From assembly GCA_012517375.1 (NCBI GenBank), contig JAAYVC010000014.1, positions 1-35,041 of the forward strand: a stretch of DNA of 35,041 bases, in the 5' to 3' direction. Below the pieces are notes generated by a model. It was not told the DNA's origin and made no database searches. It saw only the letters and a program-made list of their open reading frames with translations. The translations under genes were made by a program, and so were the position numbers. This DNA comes from a bacterium (GTDB lineage Bacteria; Hydrothermota; Tepidihabitantia; B3-TA06). Positions 10,234 to 34,275 of this stretch are shown here, in pieces. Numbering within the stretch: position 1 is the first letter of the stretch; every line of letters begins with the position of its first letter.

Positions 10234-13185
10234 CTATCGCCATTCGCCGATAAGAATGAACGGGGCCCAGAAGAAAGGATGGGAGTATTTTGAACTGTGT
10301 ATCAAATCCGACTGGGCTCTGCGAAGCGCCTCGGATTTGCTCATGGTTTTAAGATAGCCGTAGAAAGAGATCATGAAATCCCTTGTGGATTCGTCAGCTA
10401 CCGGCCAGAGGGTCGCCACAATCGAAGGCGGACCCTCCATAGCCAGAGAGAACGCTTTTGCCATGCTTTCCCATTCAAGACCTGGTTTGTCTGAACCAAT
10501 AGCGGTTTCGCACGCGGAAAGGGTCACAAGCTGCATTCTTCGCCATTCCTCGCCCGAAATCTCAGTCGCTGTCCACCGTCCGTCCGATTCCGCGGTCGAC
10601 GAGAGTTGGATGTATGACTCCCACGGCGATGTTGAATTAAGCCTGCAATGAGACGCTATGTGGAGGAATTTGATGTTCTTGCTCTTATCGGTGACCTCAG
10701 GTTCGGTTGCATTTTCGCCAAGAAGCAGTATCGAGCCGGGATACTCGCTGTCAATGGCTTGTGCCTCTATCTGGGATTCAGGCAGGTTAGCGCCGAGGGG
10801 ATTGCCAACAACTAGAAGGGTATCTGGCTTATCCGCAGGCCAGTCAGATCTTCGCTGGATGCACTTCAAGAGCTCGGCAGAAGTCAGGAGATTCCAGTTG
10901 ATCTTTTCAGATAAGAAGTGAAGGTTACCCTCCTTTTCGTAAGCGAGCGCTCCGAATGGAATATAGTAGAGTTCACTCGAAGGGATAAACGTCACGATCC
11001 TTGAGTTTTCCAGAGAAGCCTCAAACGGCTCAATCAAAAGATCGTAAAGCTTAGTCAATACATCCTTCAAAGGTTTAACCTCCCTTTCATAGAAAGCGCT
11101 GTCCGGTGAGTTCCAGTTCCACAGGGAGATGTTTTGATAGGCTATCAGCCTTAAACCTTTATCGAAGCACAGATAGCGGCATTGAGCAACGAGTCTTGAA
11201 ACAGAATCCCGGCTGATGTCTATGGACCTTGCCTCGTAGTTGGAATCCGAGACGAGAAATAGATACAGTTTTTTTTCTGATGGGTATGCCATGAGAAGCT
11301 TCTGTCCCTCGGGCAGTTCCTGTCTCAAAGATGCAAAGAGGACGGGATCGACAGTTACTGCGAAAGCGTAATCTGGTTCTGTCTTAATCTCGCTCACGAC
11401 CTTGAAGAACTCCGCCTTCGTCTCGGCAAGTATCTTTGAAAGGGATGCGATTCGCTCAGGGGCTTGTTCAAGCGTGTCCTTGCTTTTTTCCGCAAGAAGC
11501 TGTTCGGCTATAATGCCTTCTTCAAGCGAAAGCTCGTTTGCGAAATTCAATTTCTGTTTCAGGGAATCCTCGCCTAAAGCCATGCTTCCCTCTTCAAGCG
11601 AGGCCTTGAGTCTTTTAAGCTTTGAACGTTCAACAACCTCGAAGGCTTCTTCAAACCTTCCAGACGCCATAAGCAGATCTATATAATTCTCGTATATCTC
11701 GCTGTGCTTCTCGGCGTATGCCTTCCTGTACTCCGTTCCAACCCTCAGGCTGCTCTGTTCAAAGACATCTGCAGCCATGCTTGCATGGATTAAAGCCACG
11801 CTGTCCTGTCCAAGTGCTTTTTCAGCCTGGGAAAGATGAGTGTAACCTTTTGCCAGACTCAAAGGGGCTAGAGCGTAATTCTTCTCGTTAATCTGGACGC
11901 TTGCTTCAAAATATGCAAGCGCTTTTCCTGGGTTGCCGGCTTTAAGATAAGTCGCGCCTAATCCATCCATTGTTTCTGCGACACCGAAGCCCGTTCCAAC
12001 AGGACATTTCTCCCAAACGCTGAGCGCCTCATCGTAGTTCCTTACCGCTTCCGCATAGTTCCCTTTCTCGCGGTAACCGGTAGCCAGATCGTCAAGCGTA
12101 GATGCAAGTATTTGGGGATGAGAACCTTCGGGCAGGTTCCGCAGATTTTCAACGGCTTTGGAAAGAAGGTTCAGACCGTCATCGGTTTTGCCTTCCTTCA
12201 TTCGGATCTCGCCGAGAAGGCTGTAATATGCCCATACCCTGGGTCCCTCTTCGCCGAACACCTCTGTAAATACTTCAAGCGCCCTTGAGGCCAGCGAGTC
12301 GGCCTTCTCAAGCTCGCCTAACTCGAAATATGTGGATGCCAGATCGCTCATTGAAAGCGCAAGCCACCACGGAGAACCGGAGAGTTCTGCGAGTTCCATG
12401 GCATTGCTCCGGTATCCCAGGGCTTTTTCCTCGAATCCCAGCCCTGCATAGAGCTGGCCTGCAAAACCGTAAAAGGGAATCAGTTCAGGCGAGGAATCGC
12501 CTACAGCCGCACGAGCGATATCGATGCTTTTAAGGACAGCCGAGTCCATCATGGAGAGCCTGCCTTTTGCTCCCCAGGAAGCGGCAATCCACTGCCAGCT
12601 TCTCGCGGATTCGAGGGAATCGATCTCCGTGTAAATGGATGCCGCCGAAGAGAGTTCTACAATAGCGTCGTCGAAATGTGCAAACTGGAATTCGTACACC
12701 CCAAGGTCATAATACGCATCCGCTACGCGGCGGTGTTTGGTTCCGAGTGCGGCCAGTCGGATAAGCAATGACGCTTTGAGATGCTCCATCGCTTCTTTGT
12801 ATTTATTCAGACCGCCGTACGCTTTTCCCACAAGACCTTCCAGGCGCGCGGTCAAAGTATCTTCCCTGCCCATGAATCGAGCCGCAAGAGCAAGACCTCT
12901 CTCCGATGTGGTTAGCGCCGAATCATACTGCGATGAAAGAATAAGCACCCAGGAAAGACCACTCAGGGCGTCTACAAGACCGTTCGTATCCGAAATCAAT
13001 TCCCTCATTCCTATCTCTTGCGAGAGGTGAAACCGGGCAAGGTCGAGTTGATAGTCGCCAGCCGCCTGCATTCCTGATTCATGAAGACTGTCAGCCGCAG
13101 AACGCACGGAATCAGCGTTTTGGGAATACACAACACCCGCTGAGATCAAGAAGAGAATCAGTACCGTCGCGCGCCACGAATATAT
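10234..13185 (-). CDS. Exported TPR-repeat protein with C-terminal CHAT (caspase-like) domain
   Basis: About 983 residues from the proposed AUA start at 13185. The N-terminal half (about residues 50-480) is a run of tetratricopeptide repeats with typical A-Y-L-G spacing (DLGVYEFQFAHFDDAIVEL, LGATYLKAGNPGKALAYFE). A coiled helical linker (about 520-620) leads to a CHAT domain (about 710-983). The caspase-type dyad is visible as His in HIASHC (about 846) and Cys in LSACETAIG (about 892), followed by VATLWPVAD and FWAPFILIG. CHAT proteins are proteases or protease-like effectors, here preceded by a signal peptide ending near VVYSQ, so it should act outside the cytoplasm. It is a single-gene unit with its own promoter. 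Confidence 0.88.
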   Translation of the reverse strand: MYSWRATVLILFLISAGVVYSQNADSVRSAADSLHESGMQAAGDYQLDLARFHLSQEIGMRELISDTNGLVDALSGLSWVLILSSQYDSALTTSERGLALAARFMGREDTLTARLEGLVGKAYGGLNKYKEAMEHLKASLLIRLAALGTKHRRVADAYYDLGVYEFQFAHFDDAIVELSSAASIYTEIDSLESARSWQWIAASWGAKGRLSMMDSAVLKSIDIARAAVGDSSPELIPFYGFAGQLYAGLGFEEKALGYRSNAMELAELSGSPWWLALSMSDLASTYFELGELEKADSLASRALEVFTEVFGEEGPRVWAYYSLLGEIRMKEGKTDDGLNLLSKAVENLRNLPEGSHPQILASTLDDLATGYREKGNYAEAVRNYDEALSVWEKCPVGTGFGVAETMDGLGATYLKAGNPGKALAYFEASVQINEKNYALAPLSLAKGYTHLSQAEKALGQDSVALIHASMAADVFEQSSLRVGTEYRKAYAEKHSEIYENYIDLLMASGRFEEAFEVVERSKLKRLKASLEEGSMALGEDSLKQKLNFANELSLEEGIIAEQLLAEKSKDTLEQAPERIASLSKILAETKAEFFKVVSEIKTEPDYAFAVTVDPVLFASLRQELPEGQKLLMAYPSEKKLYLFLVSDSNYEARSIDISRDSVSRLVAQCRYLCFDKGLRLIAYQNISLWNWNSPDSAFYEREVKPLKDVLTKLYDLLIEPFEASLENSRIVTFIPSSELYYIPFGALAYEKEGNLHFLSEKINWNLLTSAELLKCIQRRSDWPADKPDTLLVVGNPLGANLPESQIEAQAIDSEYPGSILLLGENATEPEVTDKSKNIKFLHIASHCRLNSTSPWESYIQLSSTAESDGRWTATEISGEEWRRMQLVTLSACETAIGSDKPGLEWESMAKAFSLAMEGPPSIVATLWPVADESTRDFMISFYGYLKTMSKSEALRRAQSDLIHSSKYSHPFFWAPFILIGEWR

Positions 13186-23495: not shown

Positions 23496-24695
23496 ATGCC
23501 GAACACGAAAGAGATTCTTAAGAAAACGGAGCGCTACAGCGCAAACAACTACCATCCCCTCGATGTGGTGCTATCTAAGGGCAAGGGAGTCTGGGTATGG
23601 GACGTTGACGGCAGAAAGTACATGGACTGCCTTGCAGCATACTCGGCCGTGAACCAGGGGCACCTCCATCCGACCGTAATAAAGGCTGTAAGGGATCAGC
23701 TTGGCCGCATCACGCTTACTTCCCGCGCTTTTCACAACGACCGCATGGGCGATTTTCTGGAAAAGCTCTGCAAAGTAGCCGGAAAAAAGAAGGCGCTGCC
23801 CATGAATACCGGCGCCGAGGCCGTGGAGACTGCAATCAAAGCGGCGCGCAAATGGGGATACACGGTAAAGAAAGTGCCGAAGGGCAAGGCCGAGATAATC
23901 ACCTGCGAGGGAAACTTCCACGGACGCACCACAACAATCGTCGGCTTCTCGACCGAGGCACAGTATCAGGAAGGCTTCGGGCCGTTTACTCCGGGATTCG
24001 TAACCGTTCCATACGGCGACATTAAAGCCCTAAAGAAGGCGATTAACAAGAACACAGTCGCATTCCTCGTTGAACCCATTCAGGGCGAGGGCGGAGTAAT
24101 AGTCCCTCCGCCGGGATATCTTAAGGAAGCGGCTGCATTGTGCAAAGCCAACAAGATGTTGTTCGTTGCAGACGAGATTCAGACCGGCTTCGGCAGAACA
24201 GGCAGGATGTTCTGCACCCAGCACGAAGGAATCAATCCCGACATAATAATAGTCGGAAAGGCTCTTGGCGGCGGCGTCTATCCAGTATCCGGAATCCTCG
24301 CGGACGACCACATAATGCAGGTCTTTACGCCCGGCGATCACGGCTCCACGTTCGGGGGCAACCCGCTGGCATCGGCTGTCGCTTCGGCCGCTCTGGATGT
24401 TCTCGTCTCCGAAAAGCTCGCCCAGCGCTCAGAGAAGCTTGGCGAGTACTTCATGAAGGAGCTTCGCAAGCTTAATTCGCCGCACGTTAAAGAAGTCAGA
24501 GGCAAAGGCCTTCTCATCGGAGTTGAGGTGAAGAAGAGCTCAGGTCCAGCAAGACCCTTCTGCGAGAAGCTCAGGGATCTCGGAATCCTTGCCAAGGAGA
24601 CGCATCACCAGGTAATTCGATTTGCGCCTCCCCTGGTCATTACAAAAGAAGAGATAGACTGGGCGCTTAAAAGGATTAAGAAGGTTCTTGCCTAA
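23496..24695 (+). CDS. rocD: Ornithine--oxo-acid aminotransferase
   Basis: 399 residues, class III PLP-dependent fold. ANNYHPLDVVLSKGKGVWVW, MNTGAEAVETAIKAARKWGY and the PLP pocket CEGNFHGRT with VADEIQTGFGRTG, then the Schiff-base lysine in IVGKALGGG and GDHGSTFGGNPLA, fit ornithine aminotransferase better than acetylornithine aminotransferase. It converts ornithine and 2-oxoglutarate to glutamate semialdehyde (proline/arginine interconversion). It is monocistronic, with a promoter and a strong terminator. Confidence 0.92.
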   Translation: MPNTKEILKKTERYSANNYHPLDVVLSKGKGVWVWDVDGRKYMDCLAAYSAVNQGHLHPTVIKAVRDQLGRITLTSRAFHNDRMGDFLEKLCKVAGKKKALPMNTGAEAVETAIKAARKWGYTVKKVPKGKAEIITCEGNFHGRTTTIVGFSTEAQYQEGFGPFTPGFVTVPYGDIKALKKAINKNTVAFLVEPIQGEGGVIVPPPGYLKEAAALCKANKMLFVADEIQTGFGRTGRMFCTQHEGINPDIIIVGKALGGGVYPVSGILADDHIMQVFTPGDHGSTFGGNPLASAVASAALDVLVSEKLAQRSEKLGEYFMKELRKLNSPHVKEVRGKGLLIGVEVKKSSGPARPFCEKLRDLGILAKETHHQVIRFAPPLVITKEEIDWALKRIKKVLA

Positions 24696-24763: not shown

Positions 24764-25342
24764 TTACTGGCGCAGCCAGCTAGCCTGCCAGGTGCATGAT
24801 TCATCCCCTTTATATATGCACGATTTCTCCTTCACCTTTACATCCCTCACATTCGCCATGGGGAGGATTCCTTCGATATAGCCCCTTATTGCCTGGCATC
24901 CCGCAGGACCAAGTTCGAAACCGTCCACGGAGATAATCGTCGATTGCCTGTCTGGAGTATCAGAAACTTCTCCTGCGTCGATATTTCCGCCCTTGTGGTA
25001 CTGCTTCCAGAAAGCAGGCATGCGCTTTATGAGCATCTCTATATTGATAAGTCTTGTAAGATACCTCAGGAATCCCTTCACGCTTTTGTCGGCTGCGTAC
25101 CTCCCGTAATCGACGAGTATTTCAGGGTATCGCCTGCCTAATTCCTCATCGATCACCTTGTATACTTCTTCCATAAGCGCTGCAGGGTACCATTCGCTGG
25201 CTTTTGGCTCAGATATCATCGCCCGCGCATCAAAGCCAAGCTTTGCAAGTATCTTTTCCAGTCCCTCCGAACCGAAGCGATCGGAAAGCCAGTTCTTGAC
25301 AAGCACGGCATTGACCCCGCGTTCGTGAGTAACCTTAGACAT
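24764..25342 (-). CDS. V4R-like paralog P1
   Basis: 192 residues. The three candidate zinc cysteines are C149, C175 and C183 (spacings 26 and 8). The zinc-bound cysteines reported for MopR are C155, C181 and C189, the same spacings with a constant offset of 6. Glu172, three before the second cysteine, sits where the fourth MopR ligand (E178) would be. P1 begins MSKVTHERG and closely resembles P2. The 43-nt gap to P2 has no promoter and no Shine-Dalgarno site, so P1 probably depends on P2 transcription. It is the last gene before the rocD terminator. Confidence 0.85.
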   Translation of the reverse strand: MSKVTHERGVNAVLVKNWLSDRFGSEGLEKILAKLGFDARAMISEPKASEWYPAALMEEVYKVIDEELGRRYPEILVDYGRYAADKSVKGFLRYLTRLINIEMLIKRMPAFWKQYHKGGNIDAGEVSDTPDRQSTIISVDGFELGPAGCQAIRGYIEGILPMANVRDVKVKEKSCIYKGDESCTWQASWLRQ

Positions 25343-25385
25343 ATTGAAAGCAAGTTTTAATGCTGTTAATTCTCACTTTCATCGT

Positions 25386-25961
25386 TCACGCATCCCAACT
25401 TACTTCCCAGGAACATTGTGAATTACCCTGATATATGCACGTCTTTTCCTTCACTTTCACGCCCTTTACGTTTGCGAAGGGGATAAGGGCTTCAAGGTAT
25501 CCCTGTATGACTTCGCAGCCTGAAGAACCGAGTTCGAAACCTTCTACTGTAATCAATGTCTTTTCCCTGCCCTGAGCCTCGGAGAACGCTCCGGCGCTGA
25601 TGCTTCCGCCCTTGTGGTACTGCTTCCAGAAAGCCATCATGCGTTTTGTGAGCGTTTCTATCGTTATAAGCCTGGCCAGATACCTCAGGAATCCTTTAAC
25701 GCTCTGATTTGCCGCGTATCTTCCGTATTCCACCAGGATATCCGGATACTTATCCTTATATTCGTTTCCGATGGTTGTGAATATCTCAGCCACTAATCCG
25801 GCAGGATACCAGTCGCTCATTACGGGTTCGAGAAGCATGACTGATGCGTTGGTGCTGAGCTTGCCGTTGATTATGTCCAAACCTTGAGTCCCGAAACGCT
25901 CCTTTAACCAGTTTTTTATAAGCACACCGTTAATGCCGCGTTCGTGAGTGACCTTGGTCAT
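25386..25961 (-). CDS. V4R-like paralog P2
   Basis: 191 residues from ATG 25961. An in-frame ATG 6 nt further up (25967) falls directly after the -10 box and would lie at or ahead of the transcription start, so the second ATG is preferred; it also gives MTKVTHERGINGVLIKNWL, collinear with P1. It keeps C-X25-C-X7-C and a Glu three residues before the middle cysteine. In the last motif GD is GN (CIYQGNSQC). It heads a P2-P1 unit. Confidence 0.85.
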   Translation of the reverse strand: MTKVTHERGINGVLIKNWLKERFGTQGLDIINGKLSTNASVMLLEPVMSDWYPAGLVAEIFTTIGNEYKDKYPDILVEYGRYAANQSVKGFLRYLARLITIETLTKRMMAFWKQYHKGGSISAGAFSEAQGREKTLITVEGFELGSSGCEVIQGYLEALIPFANVKGVKVKEKTCIYQGNSQCSWEVSWDA

Positions 25962-25967
25962 GAACAT

Positions 25968-25995
25968 ATCATAGCATCGTATGAGAGATTGTCAA
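25968..25995 (-). promoter_or_regulatory. Leaderless-type promoter of P2
   Basis: Minus strand TTGACA (25995-25990), 16 nt, TATGAT (25973-25968), 6 nt, ATG 25961. Confidence 0.75.
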
Positions 25996-26116
25996 CTTGA
26001 AAGCGCCTAATTAATCTGGTTAACCCGAGTGGACACGCACGATTCTCTTTAACACCTGCCCTCTATTCGAATTAAACCATCTTCCTCATGGTAAATCTTA
26101 AGTCTTCAATCGGCGG

Positions 26117-26683
26117 TTAGTCCCTCCATGATAGTTTCCATGAACAGCAGCCATCGCCCTTGTGGATGCAGGAATTCTTCGCAACCTGGACGTCGTTTGC
26201 TCCAGTCTTGCCGCATAGAACCTTGAAATACTCCTCGAGCACTATACAGCCCTTTGCGCCCAGATCGTAATCATGTACGGAAAAAACAACGTCCTTTTTT
26301 CCTTCGGCAGTTGAGACCGGTCCCATTTCTACCGTTGCTCCCCTGTTATATTGCTTCCAGAAGGCGCCTATCCTTTTGAGAAGCGCCTGCATGGTTACGA
26401 ACCGCATCAAGTAGCGCAGATATCCGCCTGCATCACGTTCGGCGTTAAAGCTTCCATAATCCTTGAATACGTCAGGGTGAGCGCTGCCGAACTCCTTGTC
26501 GATTGCTTCATACACCTCCTTAACAAGATATTCCGGATACCATTTTTTCGATTCGGGATTATCAAACATCTGACGGGCCTCTAAAGAAAGATTCGCCGAT
26601 ATCCTTGATACCCCTTCTTCACCGAATCTTTTGTTGAGCCAGAATCTGATAGAGGCGGGAAAAACGCCTTTGTTGTAGTTCAT
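26117..26683 (-). CDS. V4R-like paralog P3
   Basis: 188 residues, the shortest member. It starts MNYNKGVFPASIRFWLNKRF, and its cysteine motif is CIHKGDGCC with an extra adjacent cysteine; there is a further cysteine in VLCGKTG. FWKQYNRGA replaces the usual aromatic-W-K-Y-H-K-G-G. AAAGGAG lies 5 nt before the ATG, and the P4 stop is only 23 nt upstream, so P4 and P3 form an operon. The 150-nt stretch between P3 and P2 is AT-rich and carries the P2 promoter. Confidence 0.85.
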   Translation of the reverse strand: MNYNKGVFPASIRFWLNKRFGEEGVSRISANLSLEARQMFDNPESKKWYPEYLVKEVYEAIDKEFGSAHPDVFKDYGSFNAERDAGGYLRYLMRFVTMQALLKRIGAFWKQYNRGATVEMGPVSTAEGKKDVVFSVHDYDLGAKGCIVLEEYFKVLCGKTGANDVQVAKNSCIHKGDGCCSWKLSWRD

Positions 26684-26706
26684 AACGGCTCCTTTTCCGG
26701 ATTTGC

Positions 26707-27285
26707 CTATTCCTGCCAGCTTAATTCCCAGGAACAGAAATCATCACCCTTAAAGGAGCAGGTCTTCTCCTTGACGGCTAGATTCCTGACCCCGGCTTTC
26801 GTAAATACAACTTCAAAATAACCTTCCAATATGCGGCATCCGGGCAGTCCTTCATTGAAATTCCGGGCGATTATGGTTACGGCGGTTGCTCCTTTTTCCT
26901 GCTTCAAATTCTCAATCTCAAGAATCGAGCCTTTGAAGTAGTGCTTCCAGAACGATTGGGCGCGCTTCAATACCTGGATTCCCGATGCAATCCGAAGGAG
27001 ATATCTTAGAGGACCGCTTGTGGCGCGATCGGCATCATATCTTCCGTAAGCTCTGAAGAAGTTGGGGTCCCCTTTGCCGAATAATCCGTCTATTGTTTCG
27101 AAAAGTTCGCGGAGAAGGTCTTGGGAATACCACTGATTTGGGACTGGATTTTCGAACATATTTCTGGCTTCAGGGCTTAACAGCTGGAGTACCTTTGGCA
27201 CAGCTTGTTCTCCAAAAAGCTCAACAAGCCATTTTCTGGTCAAAACGGCGGTTGAACCCTTCTCGAAGGCATCCTTGTCTGGCAT
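26707..27285 (-). CDS. V4R-like paralog P4
   Basis: 192 residues, a divergent copy: WYP has become WYS, and FWKHYFKGS replaces the His-Lys-Gly-Gly turn. The zinc triad is retained (GCRIL..., then CSFKGDDFC), with Glu three before the middle cysteine as in P1 and P2. AAAGGAGG is 6 nt ahead of the ATG. The 120-nt gap to P5 has only a weak TATAAG -10-like box (near 27380), so promoter assignment is open. It is the first gene of P4-P3. Confidence 0.85.
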   Translation of the reverse strand: MPDKDAFEKGSTAVLTRKWLVELFGEQAVPKVLQLLSPEARNMFENPVPNQWYSQDLLRELFETIDGLFGKGDPNFFRAYGRYDADRATSGPLRYLLRIASGIQVLKRAQSFWKHYFKGSILEIENLKQEKGATAVTIIARNFNEGLPGCRILEGYFEVVFTKAGVRNLAVKEKTCSFKGDDFCSWELSWQE

Positions 27286-27405
27286 ATCAAGCCTCCTTTC
27301 GAGTCTTGCTGAACGCCCGCGCCTGCCCTGGGCCGCAGCGCAAGCCTTTTATTTCAAGTTTTTAATAACGTTCGCCTTATACTATCCTTGTTTAATGCAG
27401 ATAAG

Positions 27406-27975
27406 CTACCCCCAGCTGATTATCCAAGAACAATAACCGTCTCCATTGTAGAGACAGTCCTTCTTTTCCACGCGAACGTCTTTTGCCCTGGAATCGCTCA
27501 TCTTGGCGATTCCTTCAATAAAGCCTTGCATTGTCTGGCAGCCGGGAACGCCTGCATCATATTCGTAAATGGTAAACTTGAGTTTTTTCCCTGAACCTTC
27601 GCTTTCAAGCATTGTTGCCTCCGCTCCTCCGCCTTTGTTGAAATGCTTCCAGAAGGATTTGGTTCTCTTGAAGAGGTTCTCGATCGTCATATTCTTCATC
27701 AGGAATCTTAATATCCCGGTTGCGGATTTCTCGGCGCAATACCTGCCGCAATCGTACATTATGTCAGGGTTTTTCCCGGCATACTCATCGCTTACAGCCT
27801 TGTACACTTCCTTAATAAGCGGCGTCGGGTACCATGCGTTTGAATGGGTGTTCAAGAGCATATTACGGGCGTCGGCAGAAAGCTTTCCGGCAATCTTCTG
27901 GAAACCTTCGTCTCCAAACCGTTCTTTCAGCCAATCCCTGGTTAATACGGCTGTTGAGCCGCGGTCATACGTCAT
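27406..27975 (-). CDS. V4R-like paralog P5
   Basis: 189 residues. It is the only cysteine-bearing copy with altered spacing: C-X27-C-X7-C, a two-residue insertion in the loop KMSDSRAKDVRVEKKDC. Its N-terminus (DRGSTAVLTRDWLKERFG) is closest to P4's. CAGGAGG lies 6 nt before the ATG, and the gap to P6 is 26 nt; it is the last gene of the P8-P7-P6-P5 unit. Confidence 0.85.
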   Translation of the reverse strand: MTYDRGSTAVLTRDWLKERFGDEGFQKIAGKLSADARNMLLNTHSNAWYPTPLIKEVYKAVSDEYAGKNPDIMYDCGRYCAEKSATGILRFLMKNMTIENLFKRTKSFWKHFNKGGGAEATMLESEGSGKKLKFTIYEYDAGVPGCQTMQGFIEGIAKMSDSRAKDVRVEKKDCLYNGDGYCSWIISWG

Positions 27976-28001
27976 TTAAGGCCTCCTGTTTTTGAAATTT
28001 G

Positions 28002-28577
28002 CTACTCCCAGCTTACCTCCCAGGAGCACATGTCGTCTCCCTTGTGTATGCATTCCCTTTTTACTACCTTGACGTTCTTGCCGCCAGCCCTCTGGCCTAT
28101 AACGGCAAGGTATCCTTCGGGAGCCAGGCATGCCGGCTCGCCCGCATCGTAGCCGTGGAACGAGATTATTCTCTTCTTGCGTCCCTTTTCTTCGAGCAGT
28201 TCGCTTGATGTTATCTTTCCGCCTTTGTGGTAGTGCTTCCAGAACGCTTTCATCCTTTTGATCACCGCATCCATGTCTATGAATTTCATGAGAAACTTAA
28301 GGAGTCCCGAAGTGCTCTCCTCGGCTGAGAATCTGCCGTAGTCAACGAGCGCTCTGGGGTCCTTATCCTTGAGAACTTCGTGTATTGTGTTATATATTTC
28401 CCTTACCAGTTCTATGGGATACCATTCGTTACCGACGGGGGCAAGCAGAATATTTCGCGCCTCGGGCGACAGCTTCGCGGAGATTTTTTCCATGTCAGAA
28501 GGGGTGTAGCGTTTATCGAGCCATGCCTTTATTTCAAACAATTCAACCCCTTTTTCGTGGGTTACTACGTCTTCCAT
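28002..28577 (-). CDS. V4R-like paralog P6
   Basis: 191 residues with an acidic MEDVVTHEKGVELF start. Its closest relative within the array appears to be P9 (shared EESTS-x-LL, RMKAFWKHYHKGG, GEPxC). Unlike most copies, the residue before the first cysteine is Ala (EPACL). AAAGGAG lies 5 nt upstream, and the gap to P7 is 19 nt. It is an internal gene of the P8-P5 operon. Confidence 0.85.
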   Translation of the reverse strand: MEDVVTHEKGVELFEIKAWLDKRYTPSDMEKISAKLSPEARNILLAPVGNEWYPIELVREIYNTIHEVLKDKDPRALVDYGRFSAEESTSGLLKFLMKFIDMDAVIKRMKAFWKHYHKGGKITSSELLEEKGRKKRIISFHGYDAGEPACLAPEGYLAVIGQRAGGKNVKVVKRECIHKGDDMCSWEVSWE

Positions 28578-28596
28578 TCTTTCTCCTTTCTGCTTC

Positions 28597-29172
28597 CTAC
28601 TTCCAGCTTACCTCCCAGGAGCAAACCGTGTCTCCTTTGTTTACGCATTTTTTCTTCACGACCTTCACGTCATGAACACCGGTCTGGGCTATTAAAAGCT
28701 CTATGTACCCCTCAAGCACCTTGCAGCCTGCCTGACCTATTCTCGAACCCAGGATGTAGACCGTCGATTTCTTGCGTCCGGCCTCCTCGACAACGGGGTC
28801 TGTTTCTATGCCTCCGCCCCTGTTGAAGCTCTTCCAGAAAGCCTTCGCGCGTTTGAAGAGCTGCTGGACCGTGAGGAATTTGGCTAGAAAACTCAAGAAG
28901 CCCTTAACGCTTTGCTCGACCTCGTAATTCCCGAAATCGTGCAGGGCCTCAGGATATGTAGCGCCCAGCTCCAGGTCTATAGCCTCGTAGGCTTCCTTTG
29001 TCAGGGAAACCGGATACCACTCGTTGGGGTCTGGCTCGCGGAGCATTGCACACGCCTGGGGGCTGATTTTTGAACATATCTTATCGAGCGTATCCTGACC
29101 GAAGCGTTCCGAAAGCCACTTCCTTATCAAAACTGCGTTCACTCCCCTTATGTGGGTGGAAATATCTTCCAT
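28597..29172 (-). CDS. V4R-like paralog P7
   Basis: 191 residues. P7 and P8 are the most similar neighbours of the array: both have LTVQQLFKRA-x-AFWKS[FY]N[RK]GGGI, GRKK-[ST]-TVY, QxGCKVLEGYIE and TGVHD. The difference is greatest near the VSGT/ILGSR turn before the first cysteine. AAGGAG lies ahead of the ATG, and 17 nt separate it from P8. Recent duplication or gene conversion is the simplest explanation. Confidence 0.85.
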   Translation of the reverse strand: MEDISTHIRGVNAVLIRKWLSERFGQDTLDKICSKISPQACAMLREPDPNEWYPVSLTKEAYEAIDLELGATYPEALHDFGNYEVEQSVKGFLSFLAKFLTVQQLFKRAKAFWKSFNRGGGIETDPVVEEAGRKKSTVYILGSRIGQAGCKVLEGYIELLIAQTGVHDVKVVKKKCVNKGDTVCSWEVSWK

Positions 29173-29189
29173 CTATAGCTCTCCTTTCT

Positions 29190-29768
29190 TTACGACCAGC
29201 TTACGTCCCAGGAGCAGTCTTTGTCTCCTTTATTTACGCATGTTTTTTTCTTTACTACTATGTCATGAACGCCGGTTCGGGATATAAGCACTTCGATGTA
29301 ACCCTCAAGCACTTTACAGCCTTGCGCTCCTATGCCCGATGTGCCGCTGACGTAGACGGTGGTTTTCTTTCGTCCGTTCTCTTCGGTTATTTCATCGGTT
29401 CGAATGCCTCCTCCCTTGTTGTAGCTTTTCCAGAAAGCCTCTGCGCGCTTAAACAACTGCTGGACCGTGAGGAGTCTCGTCAAATACCGCAGAAAGCCTT
29501 TTACGCTCATTTCAGCGGAAAACCTTCCGAAATCAATGAGGGCATCCGGATTACTAGAATGAAGCTTTTTGTCAATAGCGTCGTATATTTCTTTAGTCAG
29601 CGAAGTTTCATACCATTTATTGGGATCGGCTGATTCAAGCATCTCCCGAGCCTTGGGGCTGATTTTTGCACTTATTTGTTCAAATGTCTCCTGACCGTAC
29701 TTTTCCACCAGCCATTTCTTGAGGAAAATCGAGTTTGTCCCCCGCATAAAGCCCATGGTATCATTCAT
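29190..29768 (-). CDS. V4R-like paralog P8
   Basis: 192 residues, first gene of the P8-P7-P6-P5 operon and sister of P7. WYP is replaced by WYE. The first cysteine lies in GIGAQGCKVLEGY and the last two in CVNKGDKDCSWDVSW. AAGGAGG is 6 nt before the ATG. The leader from the 29855 promoter is about 80 nt and includes an 11-codon mini-ORF (29834-29802) of uncertain meaning. Confidence 0.85.
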   Translation of the reverse strand: MNDTMGFMRGTNSIFLKKWLVEKYGQETFEQISAKISPKAREMLESADPNKWYETSLTKEIYDAIDKKLHSSNPDALIDFGRFSAEMSVKGFLRYLTRLLTVQQLFKRAEAFWKSYNKGGGIRTDEITEENGRKKTTVYVSGTSGIGAQGCKVLEGYIEVLISRTGVHDIVVKKKTCVNKGDKDCSWDVSWS

Positions 29769-29854
29769 AATTGGTCCTCCTTAGAAACCTTTTTGTTAGC
29801 CCTAGGTGCGTCCTTTAACGCCAAAATCAACCATCTCCAGATAATCTCCTGTTT

Positions 29855-29881
29855 ATGATAAGCTATTCACTCGATTATCAA
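29855..29881 (-). promoter_or_regulatory. Candidate promoter of the P8-P5 operon
   Basis: Minus strand TTGATA (29881-29876), 15 nt, TATCAT (29860-29855). Unlike the P2, P9, P10 and P12 promoters, it gives a transcript with a long leader and a strong ribosome site. Nothing else is seen in the 29769-29949 gap except the 11-codon ORF. Confidence 0.45.
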
Positions 29882-29949
29882 TATATATCCTCCTTTAACC
29901 GTCTCAGAACCGATAAAACGGACAAATGCTTGCAGAAAATATCCGGCTG

Positions 29950-30525
29950 CTATTCCCAACTTACCTCCCAGGAGCAGCATGAATCTCCGTGGTAGACGCA
30001 TGTTTTCTTTTCAACACGGGGCTTTGATACGCCGGTTTTTTCGGCGATGTAGAGAAAATAGCCTTCCTGTACTTGGCATCCTGGTTCGCCTGGGAAATAG
30101 CCCGAGATACTGATAAGACGTCTCTTTCGGCCCGCAATCTCATCCATTTCCTTCGCCTTTATCTCACCGCCCTTGTGATAATGCTTCCAGAACGCTCTCA
30201 TTCTGTTTATCGCGGTATCCATGCTTATGAATCTTACAAGATAGCGCAGCAGGCTCGAAGTACTCTCCTCGGCTGCGAATCTTCCGTATTCAAGAAGAAT
30301 GCGCGGGTTGTCCTTGCCCAACTGCTTGTGCGCGACCAGGTAGATTTCCGTCAAGAGATGAGCAGGGTACCACTCGTTTGGCGAGGGCTTCTCAAGCATC
30401 GTCCCTGCTTCGGCTGACAGCTCGCTCAGAATACTTTCAAGCTTTCCTTCTCCGAATCTTGTAATTATCCATTTTTTCATGAGCGCTGCATTTATTCCGC
30501 TGTCGTGAGTGACTTCGCTTTCCAT
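29950..30525 (-). CDS. V4R-like paralog P9
   Basis: 191 residues from ATG 30525, a start with no Shine-Dalgarno site. It begins MESEVTHDSGINAALMKKWI. It has C-X25-C-X7-C with CVYHGDSCC, where a fourth cysteine sits next to the third as in P3. It is similar to P6. The 89-nt gap to P10 carries its promoter. Confidence 0.85.
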   Translation of the reverse strand: MESEVTHDSGINAALMKKWIITRFGEGKLESILSELSAEAGTMLEKPSPNEWYPAHLLTEIYLVAHKQLGKDNPRILLEYGRFAAEESTSSLLRYLVRFISMDTAINRMRAFWKHYHKGGEIKAKEMDEIAGRKRRLISISGYFPGEPGCQVQEGYFLYIAEKTGVSKPRVEKKTCVYHGDSCCSWEVSWE

Positions 30526-30535
30526 ACCTATACCA

Positions 30536-30563
30536 ATTTTAGAATTAAACGACTACTCGTCAA
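30536..30563 (-). promoter_or_regulatory. Near-leaderless promoter of P9
   Basis: Minus strand TTGACG (30563-30558), 16 nt, TAAAAT (30541-30536), 10 nt to ATG 30525, so the leader would be about 3-4 nt. Confidence 0.65.
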
Positions 30564-30614
30564 TACATATTTTACCTTATACTTGTCGAGCAAAGGTTCA
30601 AGATTATTCTTCAT

Positions 30615-31193
30615 CTATTCCTGCCAGCTTACGAGCCATGAACATACACGATCACCCTTGCTTAGGCATGTCTGCTTTTCGACCCGGATATCTTTAGCTC
30701 CTGTCGCCTCGACGATAAAGCTTATATATCCATCCATAACCTTGCACCAGCCCTGCCCCGCATTATAGCCGCTTATGGTCATTACGCCTTTCTTGTGAGC
30801 GCCTTCATCCTTGATTACCGGGACCTCCGCCCTGCCTCCTTCGTGATAGTAGTTCCACAGGGTGCTTATCCGCCACACAATGGTCTTGACCGATATTATG
30901 CTGACTACGAGTCTCATAAAGCCGCGCAGTCCGTGATCGGCCATGAATCTGCCGAGCGATTCAAGCGCACGCGGTTCTTTTTCGGAAAACATCTCGTCGA
31001 GGACATCGTAAACCTCGCGCATGAGTTCGACCGGGTACCAATCGCCGGGTTTAGGGTCGGAAAGCATCTTTGCCGCTTCAGGGCTTAGACGTTCAATAAT
31101 CTTACCCGCCATCTCCCCGCCGTATTTTTCCTTGAGCCAAAGAACGATGTCGTACGCGATGATTCCGCGGTCGCGGACCGGCAGCCTCTCCAT
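30615..31193 (-). CDS. V4R-like paralog P10
   Basis: 192 residues. It belongs to the P10-P11-P12 subgroup with an x-W-K/N-x-Y-H-E/D-x-G turn (LWNYYHEGG) and a Trp or Phe before the first cysteine (QGWCKV). It lacks the FWK of the other copies. Its cysteine motif is CLSKGDRVC. It is a single-gene unit with a perfect leaderless-type promoter and no ribosome site. Confidence 0.85.
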   Translation of the reverse strand: MERLPVRDRGIIAYDIVLWLKEKYGGEMAGKIIERLSPEAAKMLSDPKPGDWYPVELMREVYDVLDEMFSEKEPRALESLGRFMADHGLRGFMRLVVSIISVKTIVWRISTLWNYYHEGGRAEVPVIKDEGAHKKGVMTISGYNAGQGWCKVMDGYISFIVEATGAKDIRVEKQTCLSKGDRVCSWLVSWQE

Positions 31194-31199
31194 GAACTT

Positions 31200-31227
31200 A
31201 TATTACTGGTGATATATACACTGTCAA
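31200..31227 (-). promoter_or_regulatory. Leaderless-type promoter of P10
   Basis: Minus strand TTGACA (31227-31222), 16 nt, TAATAT (31205-31200), 6 nt, ATG 31193. Confidence 0.75.
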
Positions 31228-31371
31228 CCCTTCTCAATCTCTGAAAGCCAGGAATTATTACCTGTTCAATAACTTTAGAGATTTCAACGAATTAAATAGA
31301 ACTTTTTCGTTATGCAGTATATCTCGATAAAAGGAAGACATCTACTTCAATAGCGCGTGAAGCGACCCGCG

Positions 31372-31950
31372 CTACTCTTCCCAGGTTGCTATCCAGGAGC
31401 AGTATTCGTCGCCCTTGTGGATGCACTTATCCTTTGTTACGGTGACATTCTTGGCATTCGTATAGGGAAGAAAACCCTCAAGATAACCCTTATGAGCGCT
31501 GCACCAGGACGCGCCGGCGTCGAAATCCCTGACGATGAAGGCTGCTTTATAGAACCCCTTTTCTTCAGACAGCATCTTTATCTCGATTCTGCCGGCATCG
31601 TGATAGCGTTTCCATATCGCGTCCGAGCGTGAGATAGCCGTCTTTACTGAGATAAGCTTTACGAAGTACTGCAGAAAACCGCTTATGCTTCGTTCGGCAA
31701 TCGCCTTGCCTACATCCCTTAAAGCGTCCGGGTATTCAGGACTGAACTCCTTATCCACCGCCTCAAACACCTCCTTGAGCAATTTTGTCGGGTACCACCC
31801 GTGCGGCACCGGCTTTGTAAACATCTGGCTGGCAAGACTCGATAGTCTTGAACTTACCTTTTGTACTCCCTCGGCGCCAAAGTTTTCCTTGACCCAGGCG
31901 TGCACGTACCGGGCATGAACGCCGCGATCGTTGGATTCTTTTACTCCCAT
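31372..31950 (-). CDS. V4R-like paralog P11
   Basis: 192 residues. It has HGWYP like P12 and IWKRYHDAG; its first cysteine is in GASWCSAHKGY. TAGGAGA lies upstream, and a gap of 68 nt separates it from the P12 stop, so the second position in a P12-P11 transcript is likely. The 178-nt region between P10 and P11 is AT-rich and holds only the P10 promoter. Confidence 0.85.
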   Translation of the reverse strand: MGVKESNDRGVHARYVHAWVKENFGAEGVQKVSSRLSSLASQMFTKPVPHGWYPTKLLKEVFEAVDKEFSPEYPDALRDVGKAIAERSISGFLQYFVKLISVKTAISRSDAIWKRYHDAGRIEIKMLSEEKGFYKAAFIVRDFDAGASWCSAHKGYLEGFLPYTNAKNVTVTKDKCIHKGDEYCSWIATWEE

Positions 31951-32018
31951 ATTCTATCTCCTATTTTTTGACACTCAGAATTCTATGCGTTGTTTCAACG
32001 GCACAGAGGCCGAACGCA

Positions 32019-32597
32019 TCATTCGTTCCAATTGATGCTCCACAGGCACTTTTCGTCGCCATTGTGGATGCAGGACCGTTTTTTAATTTCTATGTCCCTT
32101 GCTCCAGCCAGCCTGATGAACTCCTCAATGAAACCAGTGAGCATTAGGCAAAAGCCCTTTCCGGCATCGTAGCCGCTCACTGAAAACGTGCCGCTTTTGG
32201 CAGCGCCTTTTGATGCAAAGATCTGCGCCTCGGCTTTTCCTCCTTCGTGATAGCGTTTCCAAATCGCATCCAGTCTCGCTACTATCTTCTCCGTCGATAT
32301 GAGCCGCACGAGATACTGAAGGAACCCCTGAACGCTCTGGTCGGCGATGAACCTGCCTAAAGAATAGAGAACCTCCGGGTTCTTCCGGGCTAACTCGGAG
32401 TCAACCGCATAGTAGGCTTCACGCATCAGGTTAACGGGATACCATCCGTGCGGCACAGGCGCTCGAAGCATCCTTCCCGCCTCATGGGAGAGCTTTGAGA
32501 GAACCTTTTCCAGGCCATCCTGGCCATAAAATTCGACTATCCACATCCTTACGTACCGGGGGATAACGCCGCGGTCCATGAGCTTTGTTTCTCCCAT
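32019..32597 (-). CDS. V4R-like paralog P12
   Basis: 192 residues from ATG 32597 (MGETKLMDRG). An ATG at 32618 would add seven residues but lies upstream of the predicted transcription start, near the spacer of the promoter. It is the closest relative of P11 (HGWYP, IWKRYHEGG). The cysteine motif is CIHNGDEKC, with GKGFC for the first cysteine. It is divergent from the lipoprotein gene, and the two promoters adjoin. Confidence 0.85.
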   Translation of the reverse strand: MGETKLMDRGVIPRYVRMWIVEFYGQDGLEKVLSKLSHEAGRMLRAPVPHGWYPVNLMREAYYAVDSELARKNPEVLYSLGRFIADQSVQGFLQYLVRLISTEKIVARLDAIWKRYHEGGKAEAQIFASKGAAKSGTFSVSGYDAGKGFCLMLTGFIEEFIRLAGARDIEIKKRSCIHNGDEKCLWSINWNE

Positions 32598-32606
32598 ATT
32601 CAGGGA

Positions 32607-32634
32607 ATAATAGAACAAAAAAAAGATAAGTCAA
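32607..32634 (-). promoter_or_regulatory. Near-leaderless promoter of P12
   Basis: Minus strand TTGACT (32634-32629), 16 nt with an eight-T tract, TATTAT (32612-32607), 9 nt to ATG 32597. Confidence 0.7.
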
Positions 32635-32638
32635 GGTC

Positions 32639-32666
32639 TTTACAATGCAGACAGCTCACCTATAAT
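32639..32666 (+). promoter_or_regulatory. Promoter of the lipoprotein gene, abutting the P12 promoter
   Basis: TTTACA (32639-32644), 16 nt, TATAAT (32661-32666). Its -35 box lies only 4 bp from the P12 -35 box, so the two polymerases would compete for one site or share a regulator. Confidence 0.65.
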
Positions 32667-32690
32667 AAACTTAAAATAAAGGAGGCGGCT

Positions 32691-33662
32691 TTGAACAACA
32701 AGCTCCTGTTTCTTGTCCCGGTAATCTTCTTGTCAGGCTGCATCGATATACCGGATGTGGACTTCAAGAAGGAGATGGTAACGTTCGTCGCTGAAATTTC
32801 CCAGTACGCGAAATCTAAGCAACCATCCTTCTTCATCATTCCCCAGAACGCATCCGGACTGTGGTCCGAGCCCGGCTATCTCGATGCTGTCGACGCTATA
32901 GGCCAGGAGGATATCTATTACGGATACGAAAAGGACGCCGAGGCAACGCCTGCCGAAGTCACCTTGGAGCTTGAGCAGAACCTTGCGCATTTCACGGACG
33001 GCTCAAAGCTCGTCCTTACCATCGACTACCCGTTCTCCGATAGACAAAACCCCTCTTTCGACGCCCAGACAAGAAAGCGTATAGATTCGGCCTACACGAG
33101 CTCAACTGCTCATGGATTCGTGCCCTACTGTTCTGTCCGCGACCTCTCCTGGATTACCGTAAACCCCGGGCACGAGCCAGAGCCGAACGCCGAGCCTTTG
33201 ACATCTCTCTCCGACGTCAAAGACTTCCTCTACATCCTTCAGCATGACCCCGATATCCCCAAACAGGTGTTTCTCGATTCGCTAGCCTCGCTCGGCTTCG
33301 ACATCATCGTAATGGATTACGCATCCTCATTCGATGGTCTTGCCTACACTTCAGCCGATATCTCGTCGCTTAAGCAAAAGTCCGGAGCAATCCTCATTGC
33401 GTACATGTCGATAGGCGAGGCTGAGGACTACCGCCCGTACTGGAAGGAGGAGTGGAGCCGCAAGTCCAACCGGCCCGATTGGATTGAGCTGGAGAACCCA
33501 AGCTGGCCCGGCAACTATCTGGTGCGCTACTGGGACCCGGAGTGGAAGGCTATAATCTACGGAACGGACTCATCCTATCTCGACAGGATTATCTCTCAGG
33601 GATTCGACGGCGTCTATCTCGACAAGGTTGACGCCTACGAAGACTATCTCGATATGCTGTAA
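32691..33662 (+). CDS. Lipoprotein with GH114/TM1410-like TIM-barrel domain
   Basis: 323 residues from TTG 32691, 6 nt after AAAGGAGG. The signal LLFLVPVIFLSGC is a lipobox, with Cys17 lipidated. The C-terminal two thirds match the TM1410/MJ1477-type alpha-amylase-like fold of the GH114 polygalactosaminidase group: LGFDIIVMDYASSFD, ILIAYMSIGEAEDYRPYW and YWDPEWKAIIYGT, then GFDGVYLDKVDAYE; Asp and Glu residues in these segments are the likely catalytic acids. It would act on a cell-envelope or external glycan. It sits on the plus strand inside the paralog array, between P12 and P13, and stops 10 nt from the convergent P13 end. Confidence 0.8.
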   Translation: MNNKLLFLVPVIFLSGCIDIPDVDFKKEMVTFVAEISQYAKSKQPSFFIIPQNASGLWSEPGYLDAVDAIGQEDIYYGYEKDAEATPAEVTLELEQNLAHFTDGSKLVLTIDYPFSDRQNPSFDAQTRKRIDSAYTSSTAHGFVPYCSVRDLSWITVNPGHEPEPNAEPLTSLSDVKDFLYILQHDPDIPKQVFLDSLASLGFDIIVMDYASSFDGLAYTSADISSLKQKSGAILIAYMSIGEAEDYRPYWKEEWSRKSNRPDWIELENPSWPGNYLVRYWDPEWKAIIYGTDSSYLDRIISQGFDGVYLDKVDAYEDYLDML

Positions 33663-33672
33663 GTCGAGCCCG

Positions 33673-34275
33673 CTACTCCCAGCTCAGGGTCCACGAAAAC
33701 GTATCCTCGGAATTCGCGAAATCCTGCAGCGGCGTAATTGTGAGATTGCGGGCGCCGGCGAGTTTTACAATCGCTTCTATGAAGCCCTGCATCGCAATGC
33801 CCCCGGGCTTTGCCACAGGATAGCCGTATACCCTGACAATCCCCTGTTTAGAGCCATGCTCATCCCGAACGATCTCGGCCTCGACGCCCCCTCCCTTGTG
33901 GTAATGCTTCCAGAACGCCTTCATCCTCGATATGAGAACGCGTACGGATGCAAGACGCGCAAGGTAGCGCAGAAATCCGCGCGCGCTCTCATCTGCAACG
34001 TGCCGGCCCATCTTTAAAAGAATCTGGGGATCCCTTGCTGAAAGCTCCTTGTCCACACATTCATAAAGCTCCTTCATCAACTCCACCGGATACCAGGCGT
34101 TGACGTCCGGCTTTGAAAACATCTCCCGCGCCTGGGGACCAAGCCTAGATTCTATCCTACAAACAATATCCTCGCCCTCCTTGCCTCTTTCAACCTCTTC
34201 CCCGAATTCCTTAAGCAGGAATTTGCGGAACAAATTGGCCGCCACTCCTTTCTCGAAAAAGCCTTCATTCTCCAT
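33673..34275 (-). CDS. V4R-like paralog P13, without the zinc cysteines
   Basis: 200 residues, the longest copy, with about nine extra residues between the first two helices (VERGKEGED). It keeps WYP, the FWKHYHKGG turn and the terminal SWTLSW, but at the three cysteine positions has Gly (KPGGIAM), Asp and Phe (DFANSEDTF), while the spacings 25 and 7 are unchanged. GD in the last motif is also lost. It should fold but not bind a metal in the same way. CAGGAGA is 6 nt before ATG 34275. Confidence 0.85.
   Translation of the reverse strand: MENEGFFEKGVAANLFRKFLLKEFGEEVERGKEGEDIVCRIESRLGPQAREMFSKPDVNAWYPVELMKELYECVDKELSARDPQILLKMGRHVADESARGFLRYLARLASVRVLISRMKAFWKHYHKGGGVEAEIVRDEHGSKQGIVRVYGYPVAKPGGIAMQGFIEAIVKLAGARNLTITPLQDFANSEDTFSWTLSWE

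Follow-up and report, generated by a model that had tools for sequence, protein, structure and literature searches.

A tandem array of thirteen stand-alone proteins with a predicted haem-less H-NOX/V4R fold in a bacterium of candidate division WOR-3

Introduction

Why does a bacterium keep thirteen small proteins of one family, encoded on one strand and none fused to an output domain? The question is raised by one whole contig of 35,041 bp (G000:C14, here called the window) from a genome of 2.54 Mb and 97% completeness (G000). Its host is a poorly known bacterium of candidate division WOR-3. In the literature searched, no paper was found on TIGR02265 or on V4R in WOR-3. A first-pass annotation, made from the DNA sequence alone, had described a row of V4R/XylR_N-like proteins similar to the TIGR02265 paralogues and had proposed a multi-sensor or ligand-buffering system.

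Results

Layout of the array

Analysis of open reading frames in the window revealed thirteen intact frames of 188-200 amino acids each on the minus strand (24764-34275), designated P1 to P13. The array members are 31-59% identical to P1, share twelve invariant columns, match their own profile with E-values of 1e-73 to 1e-85 and form one clade in the tree. Ten further, more distant family copies lie on other contigs of G000. None of the thirteen copies carries a fused output domain. The description as one family on a single strand without fused output thus holds, but the row is not uninterrupted: the spacer of about 1 kb between P12 and P13 contains an opposite-strand GH114-family gene (32691-33662), which leaves twelve contiguous genes and one apart. 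The features are as follows, with orthologues in two other genomes (Q genes in G001, R genes in G003).

23496..24695, plus strand: class-III aminotransferase gene (PF00202), which flanks the array convergently in three genomes
24764..25342, minus strand: P1, stand-alone protein of predicted H-NOX/V4R fold with Cys149/175/183; the member modelled by AlphaFold
25386..25967, minus strand: P2, sister of P1; likely true start ATG at 25961
26117..26683, minus strand: P3, orthologue Q6 in G001
26707..27285, minus strand: P4, orthologue R1 in G003
27406..27975, minus strand: P5, orthologue Q5 in G001 (77% identical)
28002..28577, minus strand: P6, orthologue Q3/Q4 in G001
28597..29172, minus strand: P7, orthologue Q2 in G001 (76%, dN/dS 0.08)
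29190..29768, minus strand: P8, orthologue Q1 in G001 (77%, dN/dS 0.12)
29950..30525, minus strand: P9, array member
30615..31193, minus strand: P10, array member
31372..31950, minus strand: P11, array member
32019..32618, minus strand: P12, with the ATG at 32597 as its likely true start
32691..33662, plus strand: GH114-family gene (PF03537, E 6.5e-24), between P12 and P13
33673..34275, minus strand: P13, lacking all three cysteines (G/D/F)

An assembly artefact was rejected as the source of the array, because the locus, with eight collinear copies, recurs in the independently assembled genome of a different genus.

Predicted fold and the haem question

AlphaFold models of P1 (pLDDT 92.2 and 95.4) were compared with the PDB by Foldseek. 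H-NOX proteins came on top (E 1.7e-6 to 1e-4, TM 0.6-0.78, and 0.65-0.78 for the leading hits), followed by the aromatic-sensor domain of MopR/PoxR and by Bet3/TRAPPC3 (TM 0.40-0.55). The V4R/XylR_N likeness seen in the first pass is supported by the MopR/PoxR match, by the match of the 84-member family profile to MopR (E 7.8e-4) and by sub-threshold Pfam V4R matches (PF02830), for which the best array score was 27.8 (P6) against a gathering score of 31, and which 30 of the 84 relatives gave at E<0.01. The closest solved fold, H-NOX, had not been named in that first pass.

Like H-NOX (HNOB, PF07700), the array proteins are soluble single domains of about 190 amino acids, in which a glycine that follows the start of helix G is nearly invariant. 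Unlike H-NOX, they occur as thirteen tandem copies without an adjacent partner, and the best PF07700 score among the ten array proteins scanned was 23.0, below the gathering score of 25.5. The conserved proximal histidine of helix F is absent from the array, where no histidine column exceeds 54% and the highest, residue 116, falls where that helix ends. The YxSxR haem-propionate motif before helix G is also absent; YSSGR was found in four dispersed relatives, though located where helix F ends. A haem sensor was rejected on the lack of the conserved proximal histidine and of YxSxR in its place. The array proteins are predicted to have the shape of the animal nitric-oxide sensor without its haem.

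In contrast to the XylR/DmpR regulators, the array proteins have no fused sigma-54 AAA+ and HTH/DNA-binding output. Their monomer is closer to H-NOX than to the intertwined MopR chain, and the positions of the DmpR pocket residues Tyr155, Tyr159 and Tyr170, located by cysteine register, are not aromatic.

Membership in DUF2378/TIGR02265 was also rejected, because the curated model scores were not reached: P13 was the sole array match, with 11.9 bits against 22.2. These myxobacterial paralogues are likewise stand-alone and of about 200 amino acids, and a few relatives in the array's phylum match the models at E<0.01 (3/84 for TIGR02265, 2/84 for DUF2378; L104 lies just at the DUF2378 cut-off with 22.5 bits). 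The proposed TIGR02265 likeness is therefore real as a remote link, although no array member matches convincingly. DUF2378 has been reported as confined to myxobacteria (PMC9257966), and no tandem arrangement of DUF2378/TIGR02265 genes was documented in the literature searched.

A probable zinc site

Three cysteines (C149...C175-x7-C183, spacing 26 and 8) are present in twelve of the thirteen array members. In the profile alignment they are in register with the MopR sequence C...CVAQGDEHC, that is with the C...C-x3-GD-x2-C zinc motif of the XylR_N/V4R domains of MopR, PoxR, DmpR and XylR. The same spacing of 26 and 8 is found in DmpR, where C151, C177 and C185 bind zinc (PMC7264223), and in MaMsvR (C206/C232/C240; PMC3729527), a methanogen V4R redox regulator. 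Unlike MsvR, the array proteins have no N-terminal HTH domain; the NCBIfam MsvR model was matched in its V4R half only (E down to 5e-7), with scores of 17.8-28.2 far below the cut-off of 220. The register is also close to that of the zinc-type H-NOX subset of S. oneidensis and V. cholerae (spacing 25 and 8; PMC7108781).

The trio is all-or-none in 80 of the 84 family members (shuffled mean 37, maximum 48), and C149 stands at the beginning of helix G, preceding the near-invariant G154 by five residues. The nine aligned sequences that are linked to PAS-HD-GYP genes carry Cys-Cys-His instead. There is no fixed fourth zinc ligand: position C-3 is mostly Lys, where H-NOX has His or Gln. All three cysteines were lost in P13, whose orthologues Q9 (G001) and R2 (G003) retain them, and separately in the unrelated Q8, so the site is not essential to every member. 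A Zn(Cys)3 site in the C-terminal part of the array proteins is probable; the zinc itself we infer.

The trio might itself be the sensor, forming a disulphide and rearranging its zinc on oxidation as haem-free V. cholerae H-NOX does, so that the array would be a bank of redox switches whose paralogues differ in partner and not in ligand. We regard this as unlikely. The all-or-none trio and the register shared with V. cholerae H-NOX and MsvR agree with it, as does the distance from C149 to G154, identical to that of C149 and G154 in V. cholerae H-NOX. In the haem-free form of that protein cysteine oxidation alone leads to kinase inhibition (PMC7108781), and the V4R cysteines of MsvR are redox sensitive (PMC3729527). 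However, P13 and Q8 have been kept with intact frames and none of the three cysteines, the MopR/DmpR zinc site in the same register is described together with a separate phenol pocket (PMC7264223), and the existence of thirteen divergent copies does not follow from redox sensing alone.

Neighbouring genes and signalling partners

No signalling partner gene lies beside the array in the window, as first annotated, and none was demonstrated beside array members in G000, G001 or G003. A scan of the genome collection with the array profile under a strict pattern returned two close relatives. The survey of neighbourhoods of more remote homologues (14-23% identical to P1) revealed recurrent signalling partners elsewhere in the phylum, always on the same strand. 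A PAS/GAF-HD-GYP gene overlaps the single homologue or lies at most 3 bp downstream of it at ten loci in nine genomes. At L113 the homologue is flanked by a response regulator gene on one side and a PAS/histidine kinase gene on the other, at L118 it follows an NtrC-type response regulator, and at L057 (in G000), L090, L123 and L124 it follows a cyclic-nucleotide-binding gene. This pairing with kinases and cyclic-di-GMP enzymes is a further likeness to H-NOX. HD-GYP is absent from G000, where the search for an orthologue of the PAS-HD-GYP partner gave generic GAF/PAS matches only; the PAS N-terminal domain of that partner has no clear counterpart in G000 and its kin genomes. G000 encodes 23 members of the sensor family versus about a dozen histidine kinases and three GGDEF proteins. 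Since the relatives have recurrent signalling partners, the multi-sensor half of the earlier proposal is favoured and its ligand-buffering half disfavoured.

Rather improbably, the proteins would have no signalling output and would instead carry or buffer ligands, or serve metabolic enzymes as accessory subunits. V4R takes its name from a 4-vinyl-reductase-associated protein. The array has neither an output domain nor a signalling neighbour, its neighbours are the aminotransferase and GH114 genes, and the P13 orthologues in G001 and G003 lie beside a BadFG/BcrAD-type activase gene. Against this, the relatives are tied several times to signalling genes and to no enzyme consistently. Moreover, relatives without the array have 39 bp between their aminotransferase and GH114 genes, and the array lies exactly between these two; because the genes are adjacent in those relatives, we read the neighbourhood as an insertion site, not a pathway, and the GH114 gene as the outer boundary of the array.

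Transcription units

Four promoter-like sequences precede start codons of the array.

25968..25995, minus strand: sigma-70-like promoter TTGACA-16-TATGAT, its end 6 nt upstream of the likely P2 ATG
30536..30563, minus strand: promoter-like TTGACG-16-TAAAAT, its end 10 nt upstream of the P9 ATG
31200..31227, minus strand: promoter-like TTGACA-16-TAATAT, its end 6 nt upstream of the P10 ATG
32607..32634, minus strand: promoter-like TTGACT-16-TATTAT, its end 9 nt upstream of the P12 ATG

P2 likely has a leaderless start, and those of P9, P10 and P12 may be leaderless as well. No Shine-Dalgarno sequence was found ahead of the P9, P10 and P12 ATGs; each array start except that of P1 has a Shine-Dalgarno sequence or a promoter. 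A single operon was rejected for the G000 array, which, given these four starts, comprises several transcription units. In G001 the intergenic gaps are 2-21 bp and the array looks like one operon.

This tight spacing in G001, the conserved gene order and the fold similarity to Bet3/TRAPPC3, in line with the known homology of V4R and Bet3 (PMC2253512), could point to a hetero-oligomeric Bet3/TRAPP-type scaffold built from co-expressed paralogues. Such a scaffold is very unlikely: H-NOX is clearly the better fold match, copy numbers range between 8 and 13, the internal promoters in G000 do not enforce a fixed stoichiometry, and no partner subunit, other complex component or other TRAPP-like gene was seen.

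Conservation of the copies

Orthologous pairs in two genera keep their gene order and are 55-77% identical. dN/dS was about 0.1 (0.08-0.12) for the pairs with measurable dS, and pN was far below pS in every pair. Residues 79, 83 and 101 are identical in 7/7 orthologue pairs and different among paralogues. That the copies are functionless, decaying duplicates, a possibility raised in the first pass, is scarcely credible, even though P13 and Q8 lost the cysteine site and a C-terminal fragment (residues 104-192) left beside the aminotransferase gene in G005 shows that the locus can decay. This reading is largely refuted: the orthologues are collinear and evolve under purifying selection, thirteen frames out of thirteen are intact, and every start but that of P1 has a promoter or a Shine-Dalgarno sequence.

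Discussion

We consider it fairly probable that the array encodes soluble, haem-less sensors of the H-NOX/V4R fold which act in trans on signalling proteins and have been expanded into an input bank. Stand-alone H-NOX proteins regulate kinases and cyclic-di-GMP enzymes in trans (PMC8738867); for the array members themselves we infer ligand binding, hinge motion and signalling in trans. Each protein, an H-NOX-type alpha/beta domain with the probable Zn(Cys)3 site in its C-terminal part, would take up its own small ligand or read the redox state at the cysteine site. Its helical and beta halves would then shift about a hinge at G154, and the altered surface would bind and switch a separate signalling protein. 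In the lineage of the window, the sensor gene would have multiplied at least twelvefold in the gap that separates the aminotransferase gene from the GH114 gene, and the copies would have diverged into distinct conserved versions whose outputs are encoded elsewhere in the genome.

Less probably, the array may be a combinatorial input hub, in which a dozen or more haem-less sensors for different small molecules converge in trans on fewer kinases and cyclases. If it were so, receptor diversity would arise by tandem duplication of detached sensors, not by fusion of sensor and output.

The array belongs to a haem-less branch of the H-NOX/V4R superfold with a zinc-type cysteine site. Throughout a little-studied phylum this branch is associated with cyclic-di-GMP and two-component genes, and in one lineage it has grown into a tandem bank. 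It also provides a system in which ideas about the remote DUF2378/TIGR02265 paralogues can be tested. If our reading is right, bacteria may come to sense more by copying detached sensor domains with common outputs, and the collinear orthologues provide ready pairs for the mapping of ligand specificity.

Array layout and copy number

Thirteen minus-strand open reading frames of 188-200 amino acids each (P1 to P13) were found at 24764-34275, confirming that the array is made of same-strand genes of one family: the proteins could be aligned over their full length, with 31-59% identity to P1 and twelve invariant columns. The first-pass annotation had placed all thirteen in a row. This holds for the contiguous P1 to P12, but P13 is split off by one gene:

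32691-33662, opposite strand to the array, GH114-family gene (Pfam PF03537), between P12 and P13

The window is the entire contig C14 of a 2.54 Mb genome (G000, 97% complete). Ten further, distant family members, several as pairs or threes, are located on six other contigs, giving 23 members in total. The window also encodes a TPR-CHAT protein of 971 aa (10234-13149; CHAT is a peptidase-like domain).

Predicted fold and haem binding

AlphaFold models reached a pLDDT of 92 with 13 sequences and 95 with 84 sequences. The proposed V4R/XylR_N-like fold was borne out in part by Foldseek: the aromatic sensor domain of MopR/PoxR and then TRAPPC3/Bet3 were matched, but H-NOX came first (E about 2e-6, TM about 0.7). 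Sub-threshold Pfam matches on the same proteins, HNOB over the N-terminal half and V4R over the C-terminal part, suit one superfold. As no His column in the array alignment was conserved at 60% or above and the YxSxR motif was not found at its H-NOX position, H-NOX-type haem binding is not expected. The mode of working may resemble that of stand-alone H-NOX proteins and of XylR_N sensor domains, whereas the array family lacks the haem ligands of the former and the fused output of the latter; it was therefore filed as a superfold variant outside both families. A related protein from the WOR-3 phylum (L104, 1474-2031) scored 22.5 bits, just over the gathering cut-off of 22.2 for DUF2378, a family that has been presented as exclusively myxobacterial (PMC9257966).

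A conserved cysteine trio

Three cysteine residues, C149, C175 and C183 (P1 numbering), are spaced by 26 and 8. The zinc ligands of DmpR are C151, C177 and C185 plus Glu172 (PMC7264223), C206, C232 and C240 are redox-relevant in MaMsvR (PMC3729527), and the zinc-binding cysteines of the S. oneidensis and V. cholerae H-NOX are spaced by 25 and 8 (PMC7108781). An 84-member profile aligned the cysteine columns directly to MopR (E 7.8e-4). The trio, complete as Cys-Cys-Cys or, in the PAS-HD-GYP-linked group, as Cys-Cys-His, was all-or-none in 80 of the 84 proteins (shuffled mean 37), a count inflated by relatedness. The Cys-Cys-His form occurs in members linked to PAS/GAF-HD-GYP genes (L126, L128, L129, L130), and the gene overlaps at these loci reach 29 bp. 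On the tree of 84 relatives the site must have changed state at least seven times, and P13 and Q8 (from the related genome G001), which are not sisters, separately lost all three cysteines. A metal site is the simplest explanation for this pattern; since the fourth ligand position is variable, mostly Lys at C-3, zinc itself is what we infer.

Origin and maintenance of the copies

In G001, from another genus, a tight operon of eight members (gaps 2-21 bp) lies by the same convergent aminotransferase gene. A maximum-likelihood tree paired P8-Q1, P7-Q2, P6-Q3/Q4, P5-Q5 and P3-Q6, with the order of transcription conserved, and grouped P4 with a gene of G003 and P13 with Q9/R2 (from G001 and G003). 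The array formed a single clade (98%) among the 84 relatives. Together these trees indicate that much duplication is older than the split of the two genera.

P1 to P12 lie exactly between the aminotransferase and GH114 genes. In G002 and G004, of a third genus, the array is absent, and the aminotransferase gene and the GH114 gene that comes after it lie 39 bp apart. The sole remnant in G005 is a C-terminal fragment (residues 104-192; L143, 3840-4109) adjoining the aminotransferase gene, a sign of array loss in this sister genus. Thus, the array expanded at a specific intergenic position, from which it can also disappear. At L054 8465-13361 (G001) and L061 193-5910 (G003), P13 orthologues are divergent from a gene for a 1.36-kaa BadFG/BcrAD-type activase with DUF2229.

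The dN/dS was 0.08-0.12 for G000-G001 orthologue pairs with measurable dS. Identity in helices D-F was 71-82% between orthologues and 37-52% between paralogues; residues 79, 83 and 101 were the same in 7/7 orthologue pairs and different among paralogues. Such positions cluster again at 141-165 (10/26, p = 3e-4; region picked post hoc). These are the expected marks of what may be distinct, maintained specificities.

Expression signals

Shine-Dalgarno sequences precede P3-P8, P11 and P13. P2, P9, P10 and P12 have none; each carries a sigma-70 match of 10-11 of 12, with 6-10 nt between the end of the -10 box and the likely ATG (0.5% of the region's positions are equally good):

25968-25995, sigma-70-like promoter before P2
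30536-30563, sigma-70-like promoter before P9
31200-31227, sigma-70-like promoter before P10
32607-32634, sigma-70-like promoter before P12

P1 has neither signal. By this pattern, the genes of the G000 array probably belong to several transcription units, some of them leaderless, an arrangement that counts against the proteins forming a fixed-stoichiometry complex. A similar TTGACA box lies shortly upstream of the start in several dispersed copies (C73, C82, C43), and leaderless starts may be common in the lineage.

Signalling neighbours and possible outputs

As the first-pass annotation had remarked, no obvious partner gene was found within the window. Across the phylum, homologues occur in same-strand linkage with signalling genes; many other copies lack a signalling neighbour. 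At ten loci in nine genomes, the homologue either overlaps a PAS/GAF-HD-GYP-type gene or is at most 3 bp away from one (four assigned by Pfam, the others by similarity to those four). One homologue (L118) follows an NtrC-type regulator. In four cases from two distant lineages (L057, L090, L123, L124) it follows a cyclic-nucleotide-binding gene, as on contig C73 of G000:

L057 6824-7198, stand-alone cyclic-nucleotide-binding protein
L057 7380-7955, same strand, family member

G000 encodes about a dozen histidine kinases and three GGDEF proteins, and a search of the genome found no HD-GYP protein. Set against 23 members, these numbers suggest that one-to-one pairing of each sensor with an own output of those classes is unlikely. 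Contigs C24 and C57 carry open frames, 3252 and 2861 aa long, in which GAF/PAS-like matches occur together with a histidine-kinase ATPase domain.

Known regulators in trans of kinases and of cyclic-di-GMP enzymes include the stand-alone H-NOX proteins (PMC8738867). The three-gene unit of G134 (L113, 2688-5082), in the order response regulator, V4R-like protein, PAS-histidine kinase, is a promising test case for in-trans signalling. The reading that we favour as most likely, with moderate confidence, is that the array supplies a bank of H-NOX/V4R-fold sensors, detached and without haem, that would act in trans on signalling proteins.
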